Positions 33,119 to 50,090 of a stretch of 58,826 bases of DNA are shown here, one piece after another (position 1 is the first letter of the stretch; every line of letters starts with the position of its first letter). This stretch comes from Peptostreptococcaceae bacterium (GTDB lineage Bacteria > Bacillota > Clostridia > Peptostreptococcales > Acidaminobacteraceae), in NCBI GenBank assembly GCA_027064135.1, contig JAMOQG010000034.1:1-58826 (forward strand), read 5' to 3'. The translations under genes and the position numbers were made by a program. Under the pieces are notes generated by a model. That model worked only from the letters and a program-made list of their open reading frames with translations, ran no database searches and was not told the DNA's origin.

Positions 33119-34333
33119 TTACGGCATTATATTATCTGCCCATTTAATAGATTCAAAATATATTTCGCTTAAATCATCAATTGAAATATCATTTTTTTGC
33201 AATAATTTTTCCAATTTTTCCATTTTACCTCTTTCATTTATAATTATAAGTTCAAGAACATTTGTTAACGAATTATTTTTTCCTAAGAGTGCATCTTTTA
33301 TCTCATTATCCAATGGCAAACTTTCTAATATCATATTCATATCTCTTTTTAAAATAATATTTATTAATGAAAAAACTCCTAATAAAAATAGTTTTTCTTT
33401 CTTGCCGTTCATTTTAAATTTACTTGCTAAACTTTCAGCTTGTTTTCCACGAATTAATGATTTTTTTAATAACTCATTTGGAGTTCCAACTGGTGCCATT
33501 GTTTTTAAAAAATTAAAATATATTATTTTTTTACTCTCTTTTAACCCCAATCGTGCTAATGCATTTTTTATAGAAGTAATACTATTACGAGAATAATACG
33601 CAACACTATTTACAATATTTAATAATGAAAACGTTAATGAAACATCGTTTTTAGTGATTTCTGCTAATTTATCATAACTAACTTCCTCTTTATTTAATTC
33701 CTCAATTAATTGAATATAAACACTTGAAATTGTAGTCATAACATTCGTTTCTAATATTTCCGGTTTTAAAAAGTAATATCCTTGAAACATTGTAAACCCA
33801 TGCTCTTTAGCAAATTCAAATTCCTCATACGTCTCAATTTTTTCCGCTAACAGAATTTTATTTTTCTTTTTAACAATATTTGCAGTTTTTATAATTTCTT
33901 CTTTTGAAAATTCGATGAAATCAACTTTTATTATATCTGATTGATCAAGAAGTTTTGATTTCTTTTTATCACAAATAAAATCATCAATTGCAAAAACATA
34001 TCCATTGTTTTTCAATTCATCTATAACTTCATTTATATTTTCAGCATCAAAAATATCTTCTAATATTTCAATAACTACTTCATCTTTTCTTAGAAGCATA
34101 GGTAATTTTTCTAAAATTAATTTTTCAGTGAAATTAATAAACACTTTTTTACCACCAGATAATTTATCAATACCAAAATTAACAAGTAAATCTTTTAAAA
34201 CTTCATTCGTTGCAACATTTCCATCGCTAAAATCTGCTAAATTAACATCATTAAACTTTCTAAATAATAGTTCGTATGCAATTGTCTCATGTTTTGCATT
34301 CAATATAGGCTGCCTTGCAACAACTGTTTTCAA
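33119..34333 (-). CDS. EAL/HDOD signalling protein (YuxH-like)
   Basis: 404 residues: EAL-type domain (about 1-195) and HDOD domain (about 200-390). The EAL motif reads YELLFR and the later catalytic positions are partly changed (EILED, AIDDFIC), as in the YuxH group. It is probably a non-hydrolysing sensor rather than an active cyclic-di-GMP phosphodiesterase. The start is TTG at 34333 with GGGAG 7 bases upstream, overlapping no ATG option. It follows the PAS/PP2C gene by 14 bases and is likely co-transcribed. Confidence 0.83.
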   Translation of the reverse strand: MKTVVARQPILNAKHETIAYELLFRKFNDVNLADFSDGNVATNEVLKDLLVNFGIDKLSGGKKVFINFTEKLILEKLPMLLRKDEVVIEILEDIFDAENINEVIDELKNNGYVFAIDDFICDKKKSKLLDQSDIIKVDFIEFSKEEIIKTANIVKKKNKILLAEKIETYEEFEFAKEHGFTMFQGYYFLKPEILETNVMTTISSVYIQLIEELNKEEVSYDKLAEITKNDVSLTFSLLNIVNSVAYYSRNSITSIKNALARLGLKESKKIIYFNFLKTMAPVGTPNELLKKSLIRGKQAESLASKFKMNGKKEKLFLLGVFSLINIILKRDMNMILESLPLDNEIKDALLGKNNSLTNVLELIIINERGKMEKLEKLLQKNDISIDDLSEIYFESIKWADNIMP

Positions 34334-34347
34334 ATCATCACTCCCTT

Positions 34348-35799
34348 TTATAATAATTTTATTGAAATCAAAGTAATATCATCATTAATTTTATTGAAAT
34401 AATGTTCCAAAATTTCATTTTCTACATGATCCAATAATTTTTTTTCGCTATTTTTGTTATTCTTATAATTCATCAATTCACTTTCTAATACATTTACCAT
34501 TTTTGTATACTCAATTGGAATTTCAATAATTCCATCAGTATATAAAAGTATTTCACTATCTTTAGTATATTTAATAGTTTTTGATATAAATTCAGCATTA
34601 TCAAATAATCCTATTGGTAAATTGCTACTAATTAACGAATTAACGTCTTTATTATCAATTAAATATAACTGCGGATGTCCACAATTAAAATATTCAATAG
34701 TTTTTTCTTTTATATCAATTATCAAATATACTGCGGTGCAATAATAATTACTTAATAATTCATTACCTTGAAAAACACTAATTAAACCTTTATTTATTTC
34801 TTCTAAAATATTTTTTTCGCCATTTTCTTTTTCTAATTGACTTTTAAAAATACCGACAATGACAGTTGTAATTAATGCGCTTCCAACTCCATGACCAACT
34901 ACATCTGCTAAAAGAACAACATATTTATCATTTGATATTTTATGCCATTTATATAGATCCCCACTAACATCACTAAAAGGATAATATTTTGCTTTAATTG
35001 ATATATTTTCATCATAAAAATCATCAGACAACAATTTCAGTTGAATCTTTGAAGCTATATCAGTCTCAAGTTTTCTTTCCTCTGATATAATTTTTTCTTT
35101 TGTAATATTTCTTGCGATTGATATATAATATTTATTTCTATCATTTACTATAATAGGGTAAATACTAGTATCTTGAAAATATAATGTATTATTTTTTCTT
35201 TTATTATGAAATAGTCCTTTCCAAATCATGCCAACTTCTAAAGTTTCAATCAAATTATCATAGAACATAAAACTATGTTCTCCAGATTCTAATAACTTTG
35301 GAGTTTTTCCAATTAATTCATTTTTTGAATAACCTGTTTCAGCGCAAAATGCTTCATTCACATATAAATATTTTTCTTCGGAATCATTAATTGCTATTAA
35401 ATACTTATTATTATTTATAAATTGATTAATCATTTCCGTATTATCTTTTGTTTTAATAATTCGAGTTACCATGATAATTAATTCGTCATCAATTATAGGA
35501 CAACAAATATAGTTTATAATATTCTCATTTAACAATTTAGAAACCATATCTTTATTTTTCAAAATTACTATTAACTCTTTTGAATATATCTCTTTTAAAA
35601 AAATAATTTCTTTAATTACTTTTTCAGTTTCTAATTCATTAGATAATACTATAATGACATCTATATGTAATGATTTCACTTTATTATAATCTTCAATAGT
35701 TTCAAAATGATAATAATTAAATAAATTGTTATCAAACATTTCATCGATAATTATTGTTTCATCATTATATTTTCCAATCACAGCAATATTATTTTTCAT
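34348..35799 (-). CDS. PAS and SpoIIE-type PP2C phosphatase
   Basis: 483 residues. The order is a receiver-like N-terminal fold (about 1-115) without the usual acidic pocket, a PAS domain (about 125-240: YLYVNEAFCAETGYSKNELI), and an RsbU/SpoIIE phosphatase (about 255-483) with SDVSGDLY, LADVVGHGVGSALI and LLYTDGIIE metal-binding aspartates. Such enzymes dephosphorylate an anti-sigma factor antagonist. No STAS-domain partner is adjacent. An RsbW-like ATPase is encoded about 4 kb away at 39608-40048, so a partner-switch link is conceivable but unproven. Confidence 0.85.
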   Translation of the reverse strand: MKNNIAVIGKYNDETIIIDEMFDNNLFNYYHFETIEDYNKVKSLHIDVIIVLSNELETEKVIKEIIFLKEIYSKELIVILKNKDMVSKLLNENIINYICCPIIDDELIIMVTRIIKTKDNTEMINQFINNNKYLIAINDSEEKYLYVNEAFCAETGYSKNELIGKTPKLLESGEHSFMFYDNLIETLEVGMIWKGLFHNKRKNNTLYFQDTSIYPIIVNDRNKYYISIARNITKEKIISEERKLETDIASKIQLKLLSDDFYDENISIKAKYYPFSDVSGDLYKWHKISNDKYVVLLADVVGHGVGSALITTVIVGIFKSQLEKENGEKNILEEINKGLISVFQGNELLSNYYCTAVYLIIDIKEKTIEYFNCGHPQLYLIDNKDVNSLISSNLPIGLFDNAEFISKTIKYTKDSEILLYTDGIIEIPIEYTKMVNVLESELMNYKNNKNSEKKLLDHVENEILEHYFNKINDDITLISIKLL

Positions 35800-36576: not shown

Positions 36577-36768
36577 TCACCTTTCTTCATCATCATCTTC
36601 ATCTGGATTAAAATTACCAAAAAATATTAAAAATATTGATGTTCCTATTGAAAAACTACCTAAAAACAATCTTATATTCAAACTAACATCTATTTTGCTC
36701 AAAAAAAACAAAAAAACAATTGAAATTAACAAAAAAATAATACCTGTTTTTCTAAAATTATATTTCAT
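36577..36768 (-). CDS. Small two-helix membrane protein with acidic tail
   Basis: 63 residues, no family recognised. Two hydrophobic helices (GIIFLLISIVFLFFLS and LFLGSFSIGTSIFLIFFG) are followed by a very acidic C-terminus (NPDEDDDEER). A strong GAGGAG ribosome site and overlap with the PHP/HATPase stop codon support it as a real gene in the same transcript. Confidence 0.6.
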   Translation of the reverse strand: MKYNFRKTGIIFLLISIVFLFFLSKIDVSLNIRLFLGSFSIGTSIFLIFFGNFNPDEDDDEER

Positions 36769-38023
36769 TTTTTATCTCCTCTAGTCCCTCTGCAATATAC
36801 GATTTTAACCATACCAATACATCTAAATTAGTTATCTTTATCTCTCCAAGATGTTTTTTTATTTCTTTTGTATTTAAAGTGAAAATTTCTCTATTAATTT
36901 CATGAGTATAAATCAAATCCACATTTGAATTAGCATTTATTATAGTAATTATTGTGTCAGCCATATTACCTAATGGAGCTCTATCAATATGACTCTTTTT
37001 AAATTCTGCTGTAATTTCAGTTCCAATACCAATATTCGAATTAATAATAAATTCACCATCACAATTTTCAGCATTTGCTTTAAAAAGCGGAATACCTAAT
37101 CCAACATCTCTAGTTTCCCTTGTAGTAAAAAAAGGATCTGCTACATTTTGAACCATATATTCATCCATCCCTTTTCCGTCATCTTTTATTTTAATAATTA
37201 ATCTATCATTATCTGAATCCTCTATAATTGATATTCTAATATTTTTAGCTTCTGCAACTATTGAATTTCTTGCTATATCAAGAATATGAAGTGATAATTC
37301 TTTCATATGGCTTCCCCTTTTAATCTCATCTACGAAACACTCTATTGTTTTTTCTTTAAGCTCAATTGAATAAATCGGCTCATTAATACTTCCTAAATTA
37401 TGAGCATCAGAATTTCTTAAAATATAATATTTATTTTTAAATACTATATCTGAAAGATATTTCTTAGAAGTTTTACCTTTCGAAATTTCAACATATCTAA
37501 AATTATACTCATCTGGAATAAATCCAAGATTAGTAATAATACTTGCATAATCCCTATCAACATGAGCAGGAAATATTGCACCATCCAATTTATAAACCAG
37601 TAAATATAAATCCTTAATAGAAATATTTATTGAAGTAAGAAGTAATTCTTCTTTTTCAGCAATTACATTATCATCTTCATCAACAATTAATTGATCTCCA
37701 AATTTATCTTTTCTATTCTTAATTTTAACTCTTTCTTTTTCTAATATTGCATTAAACAATTTTGCTGAATTCATATCTTTGAAAAGGCAAACCATATGTA
37801 CTTCCTCAATTGTTTGCACTTCAACTCCAGGTATAACAACAATATTACGCTCTTTACCTATGCTCATTGCAGTTTCTACATTTAATAATGAATTATGATC
37901 AGTAATTGCTATAACATCAAGCTCTTTTAATATTGCCATATGTACAATATTATTAGGCGTCATATTATTATCTGCACACGGAGATAAGCATGAATGAATA
38001 TGAAGATCATAAAATACTTTCAT
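36758..38023 (-). CDS. PHP phosphoesterase fused to a histidine-kinase-type ATPase
   Basis: 421 residues. Residues about 1-235 are a PHP domain with all metal motifs visible: DLHIHSCLSPC, ITDHNSL, PGVEV, PAHVDRDY and NSDAHNLG. From about 240 a GHKL ATPase begins abruptly at MKELSLHILDIARNS, with N-box, DDGKGMD (G1) and GLGIPL (G2). In other Clostridia I recall these as two neighbouring genes; here they are one frame joined with almost no linker. There is no obvious histidine phospho-acceptor domain. The start is ATG 38023 behind GAGGAAG, overlapping the DRTGG gene upstream. The substrate of the PHP domain is unknown. Confidence 0.85.
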   Translation of the reverse strand: MKVFYDLHIHSCLSPCADNNMTPNNIVHMAILKELDVIAITDHNSLLNVETAMSIGKERNIVVIPGVEVQTIEEVHMVCLFKDMNSAKLFNAILEKERVKIKNRKDKFGDQLIVDEDDNVIAEKEELLLTSINISIKDLYLLVYKLDGAIFPAHVDRDYASIITNLGFIPDEYNFRYVEISKGKTSKKYLSDIVFKNKYYILRNSDAHNLGSINEPIYSIELKEKTIECFVDEIKRGSHMKELSLHILDIARNSIVAEAKNIRISIIEDSDNDRLIIKIKDDGKGMDEYMVQNVADPFFTTRETRDVGLGIPLFKANAENCDGEFIINSNIGIGTEITAEFKKSHIDRAPLGNMADTIITIINANSNVDLIYTHEINREIFTLNTKEIKKHLGEIKITNLDVLVWLKSYIAEGLEEIKNEI

Positions 38024-38351
38024 GTTCTTCCTCGTCAATAAATATTTTATAAATATCATGATGATCTAATTCTGTTTTTAAAATATTTATATTTTCTTCA
38101 TTTGCTTTTTTTACTACTTCGTTATCTATCTGAACACCATAAGGTAAAATAATACATGAAAATTCCATTAAAGATGCAACTGCTAAAATATTTAAATGAG
38201 CTTGAACAGTAATCCATGCATTACCGCTATTACCATTTGCCATAACAAAACTTAATAAATCAGAACTATATACACCGTTAATTTCTACAGTTGAATCAGT
38301 ATCTGTAATCAATTCAAATCCATAATTTGTTATTAAATTAGACACTCTCAT
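38007..38351 (-). CDS. DRTGG-domain protein (second copy)
   Basis: 114 residues, a single DRTGG-type domain (EINGVYSSDLLSFVMANGNS, IILPYGVQIDNEVV). DRTGG domains occur as regulatory parts of phosphotransacetylase and CBS proteins and may bind nucleotides. It overlaps the hydrogenase-like gene upstream by 14 bases and the PHP/HATPase gene downstream by 17 bases, so it is part of a tightly coupled set. It is a paralogue of the protein at 40041-40391. Confidence 0.82.
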   Translation of the reverse strand: MRVSNLITNYGFELITDTDSTVEINGVYSSDLLSFVMANGNSGNAWITVQAHLNILAVASLMEFSCIILPYGVQIDNEVVKKANEENINILKTELDHHDIYKIFIDEEEHESIL

Positions 38352-39594
38352 TTGACTCTCTCCTTTTTTTACTATTTAATACTACACATTTATCAATAGT
38401 AGTTTTTCCTTTTACAATATCTTCAGCAAATGCATGACAAGTTGGAGCTCCACATGCACCACAATTTATTTTCGGAAGTTTTTGAAATATTTTTTCTATT
38501 TCTCCCATTTTCTTAATAGCTTTACTAAAATCATTATCTAATTTCATTACATCTGAACCTTTGATTTCCTGATTCCATTCAATAATTTCTTTAGGATAAT
38601 CAATAAGTTTAATATCATTTTTTTCCTTTGCAACTTGAGAAAGTTTTCTTATTCTATTTTTTGCCACAAACGAATTTTCAACATTCAATGGTCCACCAAC
38701 ACAACCACCAACACAAGCATAACCTTCAAAGAAATTTAAATTTGGTAATTTTCCTATTTCAATATTATCTAATACAGAAATTACTTCATCAATTCCATCA
38801 ACAGCAATATAATCATCAATTCCCATAGAAAAACTTTGCCCGCCAACTCTACCCCAATTATAACCTTTAGAAGAAGATTTTAATAAATCTTTTTCAACTT
38901 CAATTTCATCATATAATTTTATAATTTTAGTATAAAGCTTATCAATTGCTAAAGAACCATCTACACATGATTTTTCAATTCCAATTGGAACTTTTGCACT
39001 TGTAATTTTTGCAGGACATTGTGAAATATAAAAAATACCAATTTCTTCAGGTTTAAAATTTTTCTCTTTCATAATTTTTTTTCTCATAAGCCTAGCGGCT
39101 ACTTCCATTGGAGATTCTAATTTAACAATATTGTCAATCAAACCTTGATATCTAATTTGTATAAGTCTTGTAATTGCTGGACAATATGTAGATATATGTA
39201 ATTTATCATCTTCTTTTATTACTTTCTTTTGATAGTCGCTTAAAATTTCCGCAGCATATCCAATATCATAAACATCATCAAAACCAAGATGTAAAAAAGT
39301 ATTTAACACTTTATTTAAATCATAGCCAATTGGAAATTGCCCATAAAGTGAAATCGCAGGTAATGCAACAGTGTATTTATAATTTTTTAAAATATCTAAA
39401 TTATCTGATAACGCACCTTTTGCATGATATGGACAAACTTTAAGGCATTCCCCACAGTCAATACATCTTTCATCTATTATTTTTGCTTTTCCATTTATAA
39501 TTCTTATTGCTTCAGTAGGACATCCATCAAGACAATGAGTACAACCATTGCAATAATCAGGTTCCAAAGTTACCGAATGCCAATACTTAGCCAT
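38338..39594 (-). CDS. [FeFe]-hydrogenase-like iron-sulfur sensor protein
   Basis: 418 residues. The N-terminal two-cluster ferredoxin domain (CNGCTHCLDGCP, CIDCGECLKVCP) leads to a hydrogenase large-subunit-like domain. Its H-cluster motifs are altered: L1 is TYCPAI where catalytic enzymes have a Cys pair, L2 is SQCPAK, and L3 is ACVGGCVGG. The four cluster-ligand cysteines thus seem kept while the proton-transfer cysteine is a tyrosine. A C-terminal extra cluster motif (INCGACGAPTCHAFAEDIV) follows. It is shorter than catalytic enzymes and is likely a sensor or non-catalytic protein. Start ATG 39594 after GGGGGTGG. Confidence 0.85.
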   Translation of the reverse strand: MAKYWHSVTLEPDYCNGCTHCLDGCPTEAIRIINGKAKIIDERCIDCGECLKVCPYHAKGALSDNLDILKNYKYTVALPAISLYGQFPIGYDLNKVLNTFLHLGFDDVYDIGYAAEILSDYQKKVIKEDDKLHISTYCPAITRLIQIRYQGLIDNIVKLESPMEVAARLMRKKIMKEKNFKPEEIGIFYISQCPAKITSAKVPIGIEKSCVDGSLAIDKLYTKIIKLYDEIEVEKDLLKSSSKGYNWGRVGGQSFSMGIDDYIAVDGIDEVISVLDNIEIGKLPNLNFFEGYACVGGCVGGPLNVENSFVAKNRIRKLSQVAKEKNDIKLIDYPKEIIEWNQEIKGSDVMKLDNDFSKAIKKMGEIEKIFQKLPKINCGACGAPTCHAFAEDIVKGKTTIDKCVVLNSKKRRESNESV

Positions 39595-39607
39595 ATCCAC
39601 CCCCTCA

Positions 39608-40048
39608 TTATACAACAAATTTCATATTTAATTCAGTATATTCACCAAATTTCGATTCAATTTTAAATTCATCACTACATCTTTTCATATTAGGTAATCC
39701 CATGCCAGCTCCAAAACCCAATTCTCGTGCCTTAGTTGATGCAGTAGAATAACCTTTTTCCATTGCTAAATTTGTATCTTTAATTCCAGGGCCATTATCC
39801 CTTATCTTAATTTTTATTTCATTTTTAATAATTTCAACTTCAATATATCCACCTAATGAATGAATAGCGACATTTACTTCAGCCTCATAAGTAGCAATTG
39901 CAACTCTTCTAATAAGCTTATTATCAATATTTAATTGTTTTAAAACTTTTTTTATTTTACTTGAGACTTCACCTACAATTGAAAAATCATCAGTTCCAAC
40001 AATATACTTTAATACAATACCTTCATTATTAGTTATAAAACTATTCAT
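39608..40048 (-). CDS. RsbW/SpoIIAB-like anti-sigma-type ATPase
   Basis: 146 residues, a single GHKL ATPase domain with the N-box ATYEAEVNVAIHS, G1 DNGPGIKD and G2 GAGMGLPNM. These proteins are serine kinases or anti-sigma factors in other systems. It overlaps the first DRTGG gene by 8 bases and precedes the hydrogenase-like gene by 13 bases. No sigma factor or STAS antagonist gene is adjacent. Confidence 0.85.
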   Translation of the reverse strand: MNSFITNNEGIVLKYIVGTDDFSIVGEVSSKIKKVLKQLNIDNKLIRRVAIATYEAEVNVAIHSLGGYIEVEIIKNEIKIKIRDNGPGIKDTNLAMEKGYSTASTKARELGFGAGMGLPNMKRCSDEFKIESKFGEYTELNMKFVV

Positions 40049-40391
40049 AAGAAATCCTTAACGCTTCAATTCCGTTTTTGTAAAGTACTCCTGATGCTTC
40101 AAACATTGTAAAATTAGTAGTTAAAAGAGTCATTTCTCTTTCTTTTGCTAAATCTACAACTTCCTCAGAAGGAATTTTTCCTCTTACAAAAATAATTGTT
40201 CCAAGGTCTAACATTTCTGCAGTCCTAATTACTTGATTATTAACAAGTCCAGTAAGTAATGCGGTATCTTCATTAACAAACGCTAGTACATCGCTCATTA
40301 AATCAGATGAGAAAGCATAATTTATTGAATCATCAATATTTCCAATTAAAATTTTACCATTTATTAATTCTATTACTTTGGATATTTTCAT
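40041..40391 (-). CDS. DRTGG-domain protein (first copy)
   Basis: 116 residues, one DRTGG-type domain (SKVIELINGKILIGNIDDSI, TIIFVRGKIPSEEVVDLA). It is the first gene of the coupled module that continues through the ATPase, hydrogenase-like protein, second DRTGG protein and PHP/HATPase. It begins 48 bases after tmk, so either it joins that transcript or it has a promoter I cannot place. Confidence 0.82.
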   Translation of the reverse strand: MKISKVIELINGKILIGNIDDSINYAFSSDLMSDVLAFVNEDTALLTGLVNNQVIRTAEMLDLGTIIFVRGKIPSEEVVDLAKEREMTLLTTNFTMFEASGVLYKNGIEALRISYE

Positions 40392-40439: not shown

Positions 40440-41072
40440 TTAATTGTTTTTAAAGAAATTATCAATAATAGCAATCGTATTTTCTGCAACATTTTTTATA
40501 GATTTTTCTGCATCTACAATTTGAATCCTGTCATTATACATTTCAATTACTTTCATATAACCTTCATAAACTCTATTATGAAAATCAATACTTTCTAAAT
40601 CAAGACGATCTTTAACTCTAACTTTGCTATTAGTTATTCTTTTTAAACCAACTTCTGGTTTTACATCAAGAAATATTGTTAAATCAGGCATCATATCATC
40701 AATTGCAAATTTATTAATTTCAAAAACCTCGTCAATACCAATACCTCTAGCATAACCTTGATAAGCAAGAGAAGAATCCACAAATCTGTCACAAATAACA
40801 ATCTTTCCAGCTTTCAATGCTGGAATCACTTTTTCTACTAAATGTTGTCTTCTCGAAGCAGCATAAAGAAGCGCTTCAGTTCTTTCATCCATTTCAATGT
40901 TATCTTTATTTAATATTACTTTTCTAATATCTTCTGATATATTTATTCCACCCGGTTCCCTAGTTAAAATAAAATCAACATTATTCTTAATCAAATATTT
41001 TCTTACATATTTTATTATTGTACCTTTCCCAGAGCCATCCGGTCCTTCAAATGTAATAAATTTTCCATTCAT
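40440..41072 (-). CDS. tmk: Thymidylate kinase
   Basis: 210 residues. It phosphorylates dTMP to dTDP. P-loop GPDGSGKGT, the DR(E/Y)-type segment REPGG, the lid and VKDRLDLES region, and the CDRFVDSSLAYQGYARG motif are all present. The start is ATG after GGGAGATAAAT. It lies between a decayed ABC importer and the DRTGG module. Confidence 0.95.
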   Translation of the reverse strand: MNGKFITFEGPDGSGKGTIIKYVRKYLIKNNVDFILTREPGGINISEDIRKVILNKDNIEMDERTEALLYAASRRQHLVEKVIPALKAGKIVICDRFVDSSLAYQGYARGIGIDEVFEINKFAIDDMMPDLTIFLDVKPEVGLKRITNSKVRVKDRLDLESIDFHNRVYEGYMKVIEMYNDRIQIVDAEKSIKNVAENTIAIIDNFFKNN

Positions 41073-41087
41073 ATTTATCTCCCAATT

Positions 41088-41415
41088 CTAATGAAAATTA
41101 AACATATTTTTATTAATTGTCTCAAATGCAATAGGCGGACAATATTTATCTTTAATTTTACAGTTATTAATTCCAAGACTTCCTTTTTCAATTAATTCAT
41201 AAAGAATACCTTGAATCTTATTTAATTTTGTACATCCAATTTTTCTATCTTTTATTGGCATATTAAGTTCAATATTATCAAGCACTTCAGAAGGCCTGCC
41301 GCTTAATGCTACAACTCTATGACCAATTAATAAAGCCTCTTGAATATCATGAGTAACAAAAATAATTGTCTTCTTATCATTTTTCCATAATCTTTGTAAA
41401 AGTTCAATGATATAA
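41088..41415 (-). pseudogene. C-terminal remnant of an ABC importer ATPase
   Basis: Only the last ~110 residues remain: IELLQRLWKNDKKTIIFVTH, then DIQEALLIGHRVVALSGRPS and the C-terminal tail to a stop at 41088. Walker A, signature and Walker B regions are absent. The sequence looks like the SsuB/TauB/NitT-type ATPases that pair with the binding-protein remnant immediately upstream, so one deletion probably removed the end of the binding protein, the permease and most of this gene. Confidence 0.85.
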
Positions 41416-42266
41416 TTGATTTTTCAAGCACTTTAGCTAAAAGACCTTTTAAATATTTATTACCAAGTACAGAAGCTTCTTTTGGATTATCTTGAACCCA
41501 TTTAATTGCTTCATCATATTTTTCATTAAAATATTTTACATCAAAACCATCTTTATTTAAAAGTTCATTTGACATTACAACCCCTGAAATAGGAATTCTA
41601 TGTCCAAATGTTATTTCCCATTCCTTGTCAAAATCTTTAATAATTTTAACATCATCTCTTGACATCATAATTTTTGATACAAATGGCTCTCTTAAAGAGA
41701 AAACTTCTATATCTTTTATATCACTTAAAACCATTTGTGTTAACTCGCTTAAATTTATATTCTATATCTTTATCAGAATCAACATCAGCATTATTAATTA
41801 ATATTTGATTTAACGTAAATGCAACAGGTCCACCTTTCATAGAAGTCCATAACGTTTCACCTATTAAATCATCGAATTCTTTAATTGAATCATCTTTAGT
41901 CATTAAATAAAAACTTGCTCCGTAGGTACCATTAACTAATTGAACAGGAAGTTCTTTATTATACATATTAGCTGCCTCTTGAACACTTAACATAGCAATA
42001 TTAGCATCGCCCTTTAAGATTTTTGCAGTTGCCTAATCTCTTGTTTTATGAATCTCAACATTAAAATTAGAATCATCACCAAATAAATTGTTTTCCATCA
42101 TATAAAAGAATAGAATACTGTTTGCTGAAAATGATGTTGTTATTATTAATTCCTGTTTTTCACCTTTAATTTCGCTTTCTGTTTCTTTCTTAGTACATCC
42201 TACATTTATTACCATAGCTAAAATTATAGTAAATATTAAAACCCTTTTTTCATTACTTTCCTCCAT
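41416..42266 (-). pseudogene. Decayed SsuA/TauA/NMT1-type substrate-binding lipoprotein
   Basis: Pieces in order: a lipoprotein signal (VLIFTIILAMVINVGC, lipobox VGC), a stretch to HKTRD followed by an in-frame TAG (42033-42035), continuation in the same frame (LSVQEAANMYNKELPVQLVN), a frameshift near 41721-41734, and a C-terminal piece to LAKVLEKSI where the ATPase remnant begins. The natural start is probably ATG 42253 after GGAGGAAAGTA, but the A run after it appears one base short, so a third lesion is likely at the start. Substrate unknown. Confidence 0.85.
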
Positions 42267-44680: not shown

Positions 44681-47368
44681 TTACAATTTTTCAATTTTTA
44701 CAGCACACACTTTATATTCAGGTATGTCAGTAATTGGATCAAGAGCTGCATTTGTCAATCTATTTGCTGCTGCTTCGGCAAAATGGAATGGCATAAATAC
44801 TACATGATCTTTTATACGTTTAGTAATTTTAATATTAACTTCAATTTTTCCTCTTCTAGAACTAATTGCAACTAATTCATCATCTTCTAACTTTAAGCCT
44901 TTAGCAGTTAAAGGAGAAATTTCAATATAACTCTTGCTAACCATATTGTTTAAACCTTCAACTTTTCTTGTCATTGTACCAGTATGATAATGATATAATA
45001 CTCTACCGGTAGTAAGAACAAGATTATATTCAGGATCTACAACTTCAGCAGGTTCTTTATATTCTACAGCAGTAAATTTACCTTTTCCTATTGCAAATTC
45101 ACCTTTATGCAAATATTTTGTTCCTGGATGATCTTTAGTTGGACATGGCCATTGTAATCCTACTTTTTCAATTCTATCATATGTTATTCCACCATATTGC
45201 GGAGTTACCATAGCAATTTCTTCCATAATATCATTTGCTGAATTAAAGTTGTTTTCATAACCCATTTTTTTCATGATATCATTAATAATTACCCAATCAG
45301 CTTTTGCTTCTCCAGGAGCATTAACTGCTTTTCTTACTCTTTGAATTCTTCTTTCAGTATTTGTAAATGTACCCTCTTTTTCTGCAAAACAAGCCGCTGG
45401 TAAAACAACATCTGCTTTTTCTGCTGTTTCAGATAAGAAAATATCTTGAACAACTATAAAATCGAAATTATCAAATGCTTTTTCAATATGATTCAAATCC
45501 GGATCAGATACCATCGGATTTTCTCCCATGATATACAAGAATTTAACATCTCCACTTATTCCACCATCCATAATTTTAGGAATTGTTAATCCAACTTTAT
45601 CGCTTAAACCTTCTACATTCCAAGCTTTTTCAAATTTTGCTTTCATATCTGCATTAGTAACTTTTTGATATCCAGGATACACATTAGGAAGTGCACCTAA
45701 ATCACAGGCACCTTGTACATTGTTTTGACCTCTAAGCGGATTAATTCCACCTGACTCAATACCAACATTTCCACAAAGCATTCCTAAGTTAGCAATACTC
45801 TTAACATGATTAGTTCCATCAGATTGTTGAGTAATACCCATTGCATAATAAATACCAGCTTTATCAGCTTCAGCATAAATCCTTGCAGCTTTTCTAATAT
45901 CCTCTGCATCAACGCCACAAATTCTTGCGCCTTCTTCAACAGAAAATTCTAAAATTGTTTTTTTCATATCTTCAAAATTAACTGTTCTGCTTTCAATATA
46001 TTCCTTTGCATATAAATCTTCTGAAATAATTACATTCATCATTGCATTTAATAAAGCAACGTTTGAACCAGGATTTATTTGTAAATATACATCTGCATAA
46101 TTAGCTAATTCAATTTCTCTTGGATCTGCTACTACTAATTTCGCACCATTTCTAACAGCCTTTTTCATAAAAGTACCAATAACTGGATGATTTTCAGTTG
46201 TATTTGTTCCTATTACAAATAAAGCATCTGTATTTTCAATTTCACCAATACTGTTTGTCATAGCTCCGCTACCTAATGTTGTTGCAAGACCTGCAACTGT
46301 AGTAGAATGTCAGAGTCGCGCACAGTGATCAACGTTATTCGTTTTAATTACACCTCTAAATAATTTTTGAAGAATGTAATTCTCTTCATTCGTACATCTT
46401 GCAGAAGATAATGCTGCAAATGAATCTGGTCCATAATTTTCAAGAGTACTTGTCATTTTTGAAGCAATTAAATCATATGCTTCATCCCATGATGATTCAA
46501 CAAGTTTACCTTTTTTTCTTATTAAAGGCATTTTTAATCGATCATCGCGGTCAATGAATTTATAACCAAATTTTCCTTTAACGCATGTAATACCTTTATT
46601 AATGCTATCTGCTGGTGCATCAATTCTAACCACTTTGTTATCATGAACAACTAATTCTAATTGACATCCAACTCCGCAGTAAGTACAAGTAGTTTTAACT
46701 TTTTTATCAATATCCCAATTTCTAAATTTAGCATTAGTTTTTTCCATTAATGCGCCTGTCGGACATACAGATACACAAGTTCCACATGATACACAATCAG
46801 AAAGAAGCATTTCTTTTTCAAAAGGATGTGATATATGTGTGTGATGTCCACGTCCACTAAATGTGATTGCTCCAACGCCTTCTAATTCACTACATGCTCT
46901 AACACATTTGCCACATAAAATACATTTATCTTCATCAAATATATAAAATTCATTTGTTTTATCTACATGATTTGAAGAATATTTGATATATGGACCATCT
47001 AATGGATCTATATCATGTTCATAACATAAATCTTGTAAATCACAATTACCAGCTTTATTACAAGTTAAACAATCATAATTATGATCTGCCCATAATAACT
47101 CTAAAGTTGTTTTACGCGAATTAACAACACGATCAGAATTCGTTTTTACTACCATCCCTGCTCTTACAGGAGTACTACATGATGTAACAAGACTTCTTGC
47201 TCCTTCAACTTCAACCACACACATTCTACAAGCTCCAGATGGTTTTAATCTATCATCATGGCAAAGAGTTGGTATTCTATAACCATTTTCTCTTGCAGCT
47301 TCTAAAATAGTATAATTGCTTGGTACTTCAATTTTATTACCATTTATAGAAATTTCTATTTTTTTCAC
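44681..47368 (-). CDS. fdhF: Selenocysteine formate dehydrogenase catalytic subunit (NuoG-like N-terminus)
   Basis: One gene of about 895 residues read through an in-frame UGA at 46310-46312 (after VDHCARL, before HSTTVAGLATTLGSG), where the family has catalytic selenocysteine. N-terminal electron-transfer region: 2Fe-2S domain (GACRMCVVEVEGA), His-Cys cluster (HNYDCLTCNKAGNCDLQDLC), two 4Fe-4S clusters (CILCGKCVRACSE, CVSCGTCVSVCP), then the molybdopterin domain starting at CTYCGVGCQLE. It oxidises formate to CO2 and passes electrons to the NuoF-like partner. GTG 47368, 7 bases after GAGGTG, is preferred over ATG 47374, which touches the ribosome site. Confidence 0.95.
46281..46312 (-). promoter_or_regulatory. 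Selenocysteine codon and bacterial SECIS hairpin
   Basis: The UGA lies at 46310-46312. Downstream in the mRNA is GTTGCA-GGTCT-TGCAAC, a perfect 6-bp stem with a GGU-containing loop at the expected distance. It closely resembles the apical part of the E. coli fdhF SECIS that SelB binds. Confidence 0.92.
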
Positions 47369-47413
47369 AAACATTCACCTCTTTATTAGTTTATCTGGCT
47401 AGAAAATGCTTAA

Positions 47414-49204
47414 TTATTTTAAAATAATTGCATTTACAGGACATTTTTCAATACAAGCTCCACACTTAATACATAGATTTTGATCAATTACATGCATTTC
47501 TTTTCTACTTCCAGAAATACAATCAACAGGACAAACTTTTGTACAAGCTGTACATCCAATACATTTATCTGTAATAGTAACCTTTAATAACGCTTTACAA
47601 ACTCCTGCTTCACATTTTTTATCTTCAATATGAGAAATATATTCATGCCTAAAATTCTTAATTGTTGATAATACTGGATTTGGCGCTGTTTGACCCAGTC
47701 CACAAAGAGATGAATCTTTTATATTAACAGCTAAATTTTCCAATCTAGCAATATCTTCAATTTCTCCTTTACCATCACAAATTTTATTTAAAAGTTCGAG
47801 CATTCTTTTTGTACCTTCTCTACAAGGTGTACATTTGCCACATGATTCATCAACTGTAAAATCTAAAAAGAATCTTGCTACGTCTACCATACAGTTATCT
47901 TCATCTAAAACTATCATTCCACCTGATCCCATCATAGAACCAAGTCTTACTAAATTATCATAAGTGATTTGCTCATCAAGATGTTTATAAGTTAAACATC
48001 CACCAGATGGTCCGCCAGTTTGAACAGCTTTAAAAGCTTTACCATTTGGAATTCCACCACCAATATCGTAAATAACTTCTCTTAAAGTCATCCCCATTGG
48101 TATTTCAACTAAACCTGTATTATTAATTTTTCCACCAAGAGCAAATACTTTTGTTCCAGGTGATTTTTCTGTACCAATAGATCTAAACCATTCTGCTCCA
48201 TTTAATATTATTTGAGTAATATTTGCATATGTTTCAACATTATTTAATAACGTTGGCATTTGGAAAATACCTTTATTAGCTGGGAATGGTGGTCTTGGTC
48301 TTGGCATTCCTCTTCTTCCTTCTATTGATTCAATAAGCGCTGTTTCTTCTCCACATACAAATGCTCCAGCTCCTAATCTTATTTCTAAATCAAATGAAAA
48401 ATCAGTACTAAATATATTATCACCAATTACTCCAAGTTCCTTAGCTTGTGCTAATGCTATTTCAAGTCTTTCTACTGCTATTGGATATTCTGCTCTAATA
48501 TAAATAAATCCTTTTGAAGCTCCAATTGCATATCCAGCAATTGCCATAGCTTCTATTACAGAATGAGGATCTCCTTCTAAAACTGATCTATCCATAAATG
48601 CACCAGGGTCACCCTCATCAGCATTACATGCAACATATTTTTCTTTACCGATAGCATCAAGAGTAAATTGCCATTTAAGTCCTGTTGGAAATCCACCGCC
48701 ACCACGACCTCTTAATCCTGATTTCTTAATTTCATCAACAACTTCTTGTTGTGTCATTTCTGTTACAACTTTACCTAATGCTTTATATCCATCAAAAGCA
48801 ATATATTCTTCAATTACTTCTGGATTAATAACACCACAATTTTTTAAAACAACTCTTTTTTGTTTTTTATAAAATTGTACTTCATTTACTGATTTTATAA
48901 CATCTCCCTCAAGTGCTTGTTTAAATAGTAAATCTTTTACAATTCTACCTTTATATAAATGTTCTTCCGTTATTCTTTCTATATCCTCAACTTTTACATG
49001 ACTGTAAAAAGCACCTTCAGGGTAAACTACAACAATTGGACCGGCTTCACATAAACCAAAACAGCCTGTTTTAACTACTTTTACTTCTTTATCTAATCCA
49101 AATTTTTTAATGCATTCCTCAAATTTTTCATGTATTGATATTGAACCTGATGAAGTACAACCAGTTCCACCACAAATCAAAACATGTGATCTTACTAAAC
49201 TCAT
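47414..49204 (-). CDS. NuoF-like NADH-binding flavoprotein subunit (FdhB/HydB type)
   Basis: 596 residues. An N-terminal thioredoxin-like 2Fe-2S domain (ICGGTGCTSSGS, KTGCFGLCEAGP) precedes the NuoF core, with the FMN/NADH glycine-rich stretch RGRGGGGFPTGLKW, NADEGDPGAFMDRS and the cluster motif ESCGKCTPCREGTKRM. Two C-terminal 4Fe-4S motifs (CIGCTACTKVCPV, CIKCGACIEKCPV) follow. This is the layout of flavin-based electron-bifurcating hydrogenases and formate dehydrogenases; electrons from formate can reach NAD and, if bifurcating, ferredoxin. Confidence 0.92.
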   Translation of the reverse strand: MSLVRSHVLICGGTGCTSSGSISIHEKFEECIKKFGLDKEVKVVKTGCFGLCEAGPIVVVYPEGAFYSHVKVEDIERITEEHLYKGRIVKDLLFKQALEGDVIKSVNEVQFYKKQKRVVLKNCGVINPEVIEEYIAFDGYKALGKVVTEMTQQEVVDEIKKSGLRGRGGGGFPTGLKWQFTLDAIGKEKYVACNADEGDPGAFMDRSVLEGDPHSVIEAMAIAGYAIGASKGFIYIRAEYPIAVERLEIALAQAKELGVIGDNIFSTDFSFDLEIRLGAGAFVCGEETALIESIEGRRGMPRPRPPFPANKGIFQMPTLLNNVETYANITQIILNGAEWFRSIGTEKSPGTKVFALGGKINNTGLVEIPMGMTLREVIYDIGGGIPNGKAFKAVQTGGPSGGCLTYKHLDEQITYDNLVRLGSMMGSGGMIVLDEDNCMVDVARFFLDFTVDESCGKCTPCREGTKRMLELLNKICDGKGEIEDIARLENLAVNIKDSSLCGLGQTAPNPVLSTIKNFRHEYISHIEDKKCEAGVCKALLKVTITDKCIGCTACTKVCPVDCISGSRKEMHVIDQNLCIKCGACIEKCPVNAIILK

Positions 49205-49223
49205 ATTTGCCTCCTCTGTTCAA

Positions 49224-49589
49224 TTACTTTTCGTAAGCACCAATAGTATACTTTGACACAACATTTCCATTAACTATATGATTTGCAACTACCTCTCTAG
49301 CTTTTTCAGCAGTCATATTAACATAAGTTACTTTTTCACCATTTTGATATACTTCAAATATTGGTTCTAATCTACATATTCCTATACAACCAGTTTGAGT
49401 AACTTCAACATCAACTAATTCTCTTTTATTTACTTCCTCAACTAATGCATTTAACACCGGCCTAGCACCTGCAGAAATTCCACATGTTGCCATTCCAACA
49501 ACAATTCTAACTTTTTTATCAGAATTTCTTGTTGATACTTTTTTAAGCGCTTTTTCTCTTATTTTTGCCAATTCATCTAAAGATTTCAT
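49224..49589 (-). CDS. 2Fe-2S thioredoxin-like ferredoxin subunit
   Basis: 121 residues, a stand-alone domain of the same fold as the NuoF N-terminus. Cluster cysteines are in GMATCGISAGARP and TQTGCIGICRLEP. Such small subunits accompany NAD-linked hydrogenases and formate dehydrogenases. It lies between the NuoE and NuoF genes with gaps of 12 and 19 bases and a strong GGAGG ribosome site. Confidence 0.9.
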   Translation of the reverse strand: MKSLDELAKIREKALKKVSTRNSDKKVRIVVGMATCGISAGARPVLNALVEEVNKRELVDVEVTQTGCIGICRLEPIFEVYQNGEKVTYVNMTAEKAREVVANHIVNGNVVSKYTIGAYEK

Positions 49590-49601
49590 ATAAACCTCCT
49601 A

Positions 49602-50090
49602 TTATAAGTATTTTGCCATTATTGTACTAACGTCTGAAAGTTCAACTCTTCCAAAAACTTCTTCACCAATTGTCATTACAGGCGCTAAACCACATGCCCC
49701 TATACATCTTGTTGCTTCTAAAGTGAATTTCCCATCAGGTGAAGTGTTTCCTACTTTTACATCAATAATTTTTTCAATTTCATCAATAATATTTTGAGAA
49801 CCTTTAACATAACAAGCTGTTCCTAAACAAACACTAACTACGAATTTACCTTTTGGAACAAGTGTAAATCTAGAATAAAATGTTACAACACCATAAATTT
49901 CAGCAAGAGGTACATTCATTTTTTCTGAAATAACCTTTTGCACTTCATATGGAATGGCTCCAAATATGTTTTGTGCAGCGTGTAACGTTGGCATCAAAGG
50001 CCCTTTTCTTCCTTTATTGGCTTCAATCACCTCATAAAGCTTTTCAAAGTTCTCTTCTGTCAAGATACTTTCAATTAATTCTTTAGACAT
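49602..50090 (-). CDS. NuoE-like 2Fe-2S subunit (FdhC/HydC type)
   Basis: 162 residues. Cluster motif CLGTACYVKGSQ plus RCIGACGLAPVM, and the N-terminal HAAQNIFGAIPYEVQ helix region, as in complex I 24-kDa subunits. It pairs with the NuoF-like subunit to form the NADH module. It is the first gene of the formate operon, starting with ATG after GAGGAGGAAG. Confidence 0.92.
   Translation of the reverse strand: MSKELIESILTEENFEKLYEVIEANKGRKGPLMPTLHAAQNIFGAIPYEVQKVISEKMNVPLAEIYGVVTFYSRFTLVPKGKFVVSVCLGTACYVKGSQNIIDEIEKIIDVKVGNTSPDGKFTLEATRCIGACGLAPVMTIGEEVFGRVELSDVSTIMAKYL

Follow-up and report, generated by a model that had tools for sequence, protein, structure and literature searches.

The window analysed in this study is a stretch of 58,826 nt from a Peptostreptococcaceae bacterium (assembly GCA_027064135.1, contig JAMOQG010000034.1, positions 1 to 58,826). 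Its minus strand carries five ORFs running from 40391 to 36758, and neighbours overlap or nearly touch in the ORF calls. The overlapping five-gene architecture placed at 36758–40391 by the first-pass annotation was thus confirmed in both ORFs and domains. The first gene (40041..40391) encodes DRTGG-A, a protein of 116 aa with conserved SDLMSD, LTGL, and RGK motifs. It overlaps by 8 nt with the gene of a SpoIIAB/RsbW-like ATPase (39608..40048; 146 aa; HATPase_c_2), whose E55..N59, D84xG86xG88, and G111FGAGMG117 boxes were intact (119 relatives). After a 13-nt gap, counted from the corrected start at ATG 39594 instead of TTG 39618, follows the gene of a 418-aa homologue of group D/M2e-type [FeFe]-hydrogenases, here called HydS-like (38338..39594; Pfam Fe_hyd_lg_C 5e-24, FeS 1e-15, and two [4Fe-4S] domains). 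The DRTGG-B gene (38007..38351; 114 aa) overlaps with it by 14 nt, and the last gene (36758..38023) overlaps with DRTGG-B by 17 nt when its start is set at ATG 38023, the start common to relatives. This last frame joins a PHP phosphoesterase (first 239 aa; Pfam PHP 4e-9) to a second HATPase (last 182 aa; HATPase_c 9e-12).

The HydS-like protein has two N-terminal [4Fe-4S] motifs, an H-domain, and a C-terminal Cx2Cx4Cx16C motif. It lacks Cys299 and a PAS domain, and Met353 is replaced by Ser, in agreement with the Ser/Thr criterion (PMC8163306). These features belong to the group D/M2e "putative sensory" set of Land 2020 (PMC8163306), and by its sequence the protein fits this known putative sensory [FeFe]-hydrogenase of TamHydS type. 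Since it matches the published group D/M2e (PMC8163306, PMC3561251, PMC10407848), the HydS family is not new, and the earlier view of an uncharacterised kind of hydrogenase-like protein was not sustained. The features listed in the first-pass annotation were all found: the four H-cluster cysteines (C138/C193/C294/C298) in the H-domain, Tyr in place of the missing proton-relay Cys, and the extra N- and C-terminal clusters. A total of 122 loci were compared, namely 120 loci of relatives, the sister genome HSG29 (the one hit of a genome-contig scan with a single protein), and the window. In the tree, all 122 HydS relatives formed one clade against group A HydA; 15 of the 16 cluster cysteines were invariant in 122/122 sequences, and the other was kept in 121/122.

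The numbering of group D followed PMC10407848 and PMC11803613, and the spacing between positions 252 and 289 matched exactly. In this register, A137, S191, E252, E289, and L291 of TamHydS correspond to Tyr137, Ser191, Gln253, Glu290, and Tyr292. The pocket residues of the HydS-like protein are therefore Y137, S191, Q253, and Y292, and Lys196 is kept. The group D proton path Glu252/Glu289/Ser249/Asp265 reads Q253/E290/V250/D266 here; the four residues are reported as well conserved in group D, not as a strict criterion (PMC10407848). Because this path is only half kept (2/4), the HydS-like protein was filed as a variant of group D/M2e. TamHydS variants E252V/D retain <0.01% of H2 oxidation (PMC10407848); these are the variants with data, and the substitution found here is Gln. 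The Gln252 form made up a single clade of 41 rows with a support of 96 (FastTree). Its confinement to one clade indicates essentially one event, not repeated evidence, and repeated independent origin of Gln252 was rejected, with two changes on the tree. Glu252 was paired with Ala at position 299 in 75/80 sequences, and non-Glu with non-Ala in 41/42. The Tyr-Gln-Tyr pocket as a consequence of HydEFG loss was also rejected, because HydF is present in most relatives with that pocket.

The partner proteins kept their characteristic residues. The PHP metal ligands H8, H10, D42, H43, E68, H76, H154, D206, and H208 were kept in 114/114 sequences, and N14, D42, G44, G46, G69, and G71 of the second HATPase were invariant. 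The second HATPase has a gene of its own in most relatives, and its fusion to PHP was seen only in the window and HSG29. The junction contains an internal Shine-Dalgarno-like AAAAGGGG followed by ATG, a possible own start near 37306, so that a separate second ATPase could also be made. The first ATPase matched the SpoIIAB profile at 4e-14, and its E55/N59 pair and ATP boxes were invariant; against the anti-sigma F equivalog TIGR01925 it scored 52.6 bits, with 135 required. The window DRTGG-A and DRTGG-B scored below the gathering cut-off of Pfam PF07085, which was matched by 18/18 sampled relatives of each DRTGG set at E<0.01. These proteins had been put forward as nucleotide-binding, a claim that found no support, as the analysis turned up no sign of nucleotide binding. 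A domain search of all five module proteins found no DNA-binding domain.

The five genes form a strict unit. The complete set, in fixed order, was found in 104 of the 110 relatives with enough flank; taken singly, DRTGG-A was present in 109 of these loci, the ATPase in 109, DRTGG-B in 108, and PHP in 104. Median intergenic gaps in relatives were about 0 to 16 nt. Group D hydrogenases occur widely among Clostridia: HydS, called across a score gap from 277 to 134 bits, was found in 99 of 196 genomes sampled. The DRTGG-A family was also found in 99; both occurred in 97 and either without the other in 4. DRTGG-A was thus present in 97/99 HydS genomes vs 2/97 genomes without HydS (Fisher 7e-51, relatedness not corrected). 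Co-occurrence of the five families, the check proposed with the first-pass annotation, was therefore far beyond chance. The dN/dS between the window and HSG29 was 0.087–0.131 across the module genes (0.087 for the HydS-like gene), indicating purifying selection. Distance correlations between genes within the module were 0.55–0.68, no higher than that of HydS with NuoF (0.735), and therefore add nothing beyond synteny. At one locus (L058, 10546–14033), riboflavin genes are inserted between HydS and DRTGG-B (RibD by Pfam, the others by eye). In the literature searched on DRTGG or PHP proteins with hydrogenases, no description of the five-gene unit was found; the Calusinska 2010 survey, which possibly shows the unit, lay outside this search.

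The neighbourhood of the module differs from that of its relatives. In its usual extended form the order runs DRTGG-A, ATPase, HydS, DRTGG-B, PHP, NuoE, HAT, Fdx2, NuoF, HydA, and same-family relatives have the order uvrC, NuoE, Fdx2, NuoF, HydA, tmk, module. The window has the order uvrC, hprK, NuoE, Fdx2, NuoF, FdhA, mobA, fdhD, focA, tmk, module, with all of the following on the minus strand. The NuoF/Fdx2/NuoE diaphorase genes (47414..50090) are orthologous to those of the relatives' HydABC operon. The formate dehydrogenase gene FdhA (44681..47374), a single selenoprotein gene with TGA as Sec355 (CARLUHS), stands where relatives have HydA. Thymidylate kinase (tmk, 40440..41072) is the family-typical upstream neighbour and was not counted in the module. 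NuoF of the window shares 80% identity with its counterpart in the relative G222, in which both HydA and FdhA come next. This identity and the synteny suggest that the enzyme partner was swapped from a hydrogenase to the selenocysteine FdhA, and that the diaphorase and the module stayed. From G222 we infer the direction of the swap, which was probably a loss of HydA.

Among 105 loci with >6.5 kb downstream, HydA was nearby on the same strand in 61, Rnf/Nqr without HydA in 10, PyrDK in 7, FDH without HydA in 2, and another or no visible context in 25. The tie to NAD-linked hydrogenases in Clostridia, claimed in the first-pass annotation, was supported. The shared theme of the contexts is NAD(H)/ferredoxin/flavin redox enzymes, not H2. 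Elsewhere, a module adjoins a xanthine-dehydrogenase-like molybdoenzyme and an NAD/Fe-S oxidoreductase (L070, 1293–6460), in genomes with an Asp-Gln-Tyr pocket. In G192 (L123, 4559–10230), a module-less HydS-like gene is the first gene of an Nqr-like operon (NqrB/RnfD family to NqrF-like) and occupies the position of NqrA/RnfC, and DRTGG-A lies elsewhere in that genome, away from this gene. Between focA and tmk, the window holds a broken ABC transporter (41100–42260; solute-binding and ATPase pieces, permease gone), at the place of which locus L048 has longer open frames. An EAL-HDOD protein and a PAS-SpoIIE phosphatase (33119–35799, the latter at 34348–35799), both fast-evolving, are encoded beside the module in this genus. 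They were rejected as module parts, being hardly found beyond this genus.

The source genome is 97.9% complete in a 158-contig assembly. The HydS-like protein was its sole match to the [FeFe]-hydrogenase domain PF02906; neither HydE, HydF, or HydG nor a [NiFe] hydrogenase was found above the cut-offs in this genome. In the relative G127 (97% complete), too, HydS is the only PF02906 protein, and none of HydF, HydG, and HydE scored over the cut-off; its HydS keeps Glu252, and its unit stands at the head of a NuoEF-Rnf cluster. Three further Fe_hyd_lg_C proteins are encoded in the sister genome HSG29 (86% complete). HydF was detected in 77/99 HydS genomes vs 55/97 others, and most of the 22 HydS carriers without it have other [FeFe]-hydrogenases. 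HydEFG likewise escaped detection in many Clostridia that carry several canonical [FeFe]-hydrogenases, so that missing maturases alone are no proof that an H-cluster is absent. At least two canonical-scoring [FeFe]-hydrogenases, with HydF and HydG not above the cut-off, were counted in 13 near-complete Clostridia: G057 (1 contig), G148, G233, G234, G050, G099, G121, G142, G091, G157, G195, G013, and G089. Possible reasons are a different route of maturation, maturases that have diverged strongly, or gaps in those genomes. As far as checked, the Gln252 clade and the persistence of the module without hydrogenase and maturases are new observations; the place of FdhA where relatives have HydA, with Rnf/Nqr or PyrDK beside the unit elsewhere, also appears to be new.

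With moderate confidence, we read the module as a conserved post-translational redox-signalling unit for NADH/ferredoxin enzymes, which in this bacterium would lack a complete H-cluster and take electrons, not H2, as its input. In this organism, what the four "H-cluster" cysteines bind is most likely an ordinary [4Fe-4S] cluster that lacks the [2Fe] subcluster. Points against this reading of the module are that the assembly is in 158 contigs, HydEFG also go undetected in genomes with canonical hydrogenases, HydF is commoner among HydS carriers than in other genomes, HydA is adjacent in 61/105 loci, G127 keeps Glu252, and HSG29 has three further Fe_hyd_lg_C proteins. We infer the signal, output, phosphorylation, and target to be as follows. 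The HydS-like protein would sense the redox state by means of its [4Fe-4S] clusters, with electrons of reduced ferredoxin/NADH as the input here. Its change of state would pass to the SpoIIAB-like kinase, the two DRTGG adaptors, the PHP phosphatase, and the second HATPase. Together, these proteins would determine how far the neighbouring NuoEF-type enzyme is phosphorylated or active; this enzyme would be HydABC in most relatives, formate dehydrogenase in this bacterium, and Rnf in others. Post-translational control is favoured because no DNA-binding domain was found in the module proteins. Of the two inputs offered by the first-pass annotation, hydrogen or redox, redox is the better supported: H2 sensing is unlikely here because HydEFG, a second [FeFe]-hydrogenase, and a [NiFe] hydrogenase all went undetected. 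A broader and rather speculative extension is that the clostridial "sensory hydrogenase" module is at bottom a ferredoxin/NADH sensor with a phospho-switch, and that the entire Gln252 clade gave up H2 chemistry; a hydrogenase fold would then have become purely an iron-sulfur redox sensor, which kept functioning once FDH had taken the place of HydA.

An ordinary group D H2 sensor, with a full H-cluster and H2 perhaps supplied by neighbours, would require that HydEFG were missed or that maturation takes another route. TamHydS of the same group works with an inserted H-cluster (PMC8163306), the four cysteines and Lys196 are kept, relatives with the Tyr-Gln-Tyr pocket usually have HydF, and HydEFG are undetectable in many hydrogenase-bearing Clostridia. 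This reading is nevertheless unlikely, given a nearly complete genome with neither kind of hydrogenase nor HydE/F/G detected, the loss of Glu252 and Ser249, and Tyr at both residues flanking the bridgehead amine. The kinase could instead hold a sigma factor or STAS antagonist, with PHP or the SpoIIE phosphatase (34348–35799) reversing its action. The SpoIIAB profile match, the invariant E55/N59 pair, four STAS matches elsewhere in the genome, the PAS-SpoIIE gene two genes downstream of the module, and the serine phosphatase HfsC encoded alongside group C HfsB (PMC11837493) are consistent with such a transcriptional output. It was considered quite unlikely: the module contains no STAS or sigma gene, and the SpoIIE homologue was matched near the module at three loci only (the window, HSG29, and L056) and diverges fast (57% identity), which the module does not.

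The HydS-like protein might also be no sensor at all, and belong to the NuoEF-type enzyme as a subunit for electron transfer or assembly, with the ATPases as chaperone-like maturation factors. The position of HAT among the catalytic subunit genes (NuoE-HAT-Fdx2-NuoF-HydA), the module-less gene heading the Nqr-like operon of G192, and the HydS-NuoF correlation agree with this idea. It was judged improbable, as the module also occurs near PyrDK and the molybdoenzyme without NuoEF, and the kinase/phosphatase content points to signalling. A decaying remnant left after hydrogenase loss, which the missing HydA and the ruined transporter between FocA and Tmk might suggest, is hardly credible against the low dN/dS of all module genes and the retention of every Cys and catalytic residue.

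The results suggest that the HydS module here senses the redox state of the cell instead of H2. Work in vitro on group D hydrogenases has treated them as H2 sensors, and they are not known to have a partner or output. A module thought until now to sense H2 is intact in a bacterium without detectable hydrogenase or metal-centre machinery, and in this natural case the choice between H2 sensing and redox sensing can be tested directly. The fixed set of five genes points to the likely partners of group D HydS, and the module could show how NADH and ferredoxin are kept in balance during fermentation in bacteria.

In CBS-DRTGG pyrophosphatases, nucleotide is held by the CBS domains. The DRTGG-A profile matched the sequence of these enzymes (PDB 3l2b/3l31) at E 2e-4, whereas the window DRTGG proteins are single-domain and without CBS domains. 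The first ATPase resembles SpoIIAB/RsbW anti-sigma kinases in its HATPase_c_2 domain, E(x3)N, and G1 and G2 boxes, but falls below the SpoIIAB equivalog cut-off, and the module holds no STAS or sigma gene. The window shares the NuoE-Fdx2-NuoF genes and the synteny with uvrBAC and tmk with the HydABC bifurcating hydrogenase operon, but has selenocysteine FdhA in place of catalytic HydA. Kinases between M2e and bifurcating hydrogenases were already noted by Carere 2012 (PMC3561251). Group C (M2f) proteins TmHydS, HfsB, and RaHydS also have an altered-pocket H-domain, an extra C-terminal cluster, and phosphatase/kinase genes nearby; unlike them, the window module has no PAS domain and has a SpoIIAB-like kinase, DRTGG, and PHP instead. 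The window protein is like TamHydS of Thermoanaerobacter mathranii (group D/M2e) in its cluster motifs, H-domain, and Met353 to Ser replacement and in its lack of PAS and Cys299, and relatives stand with HydABC and an ATPase. It differs from TamHydS in Gln for Glu252, Val for Ser249, and Tyr for both Ala137 and Leu291, and its gene adjoins formate dehydrogenase in a genome where hydrogenase and maturases were not found.
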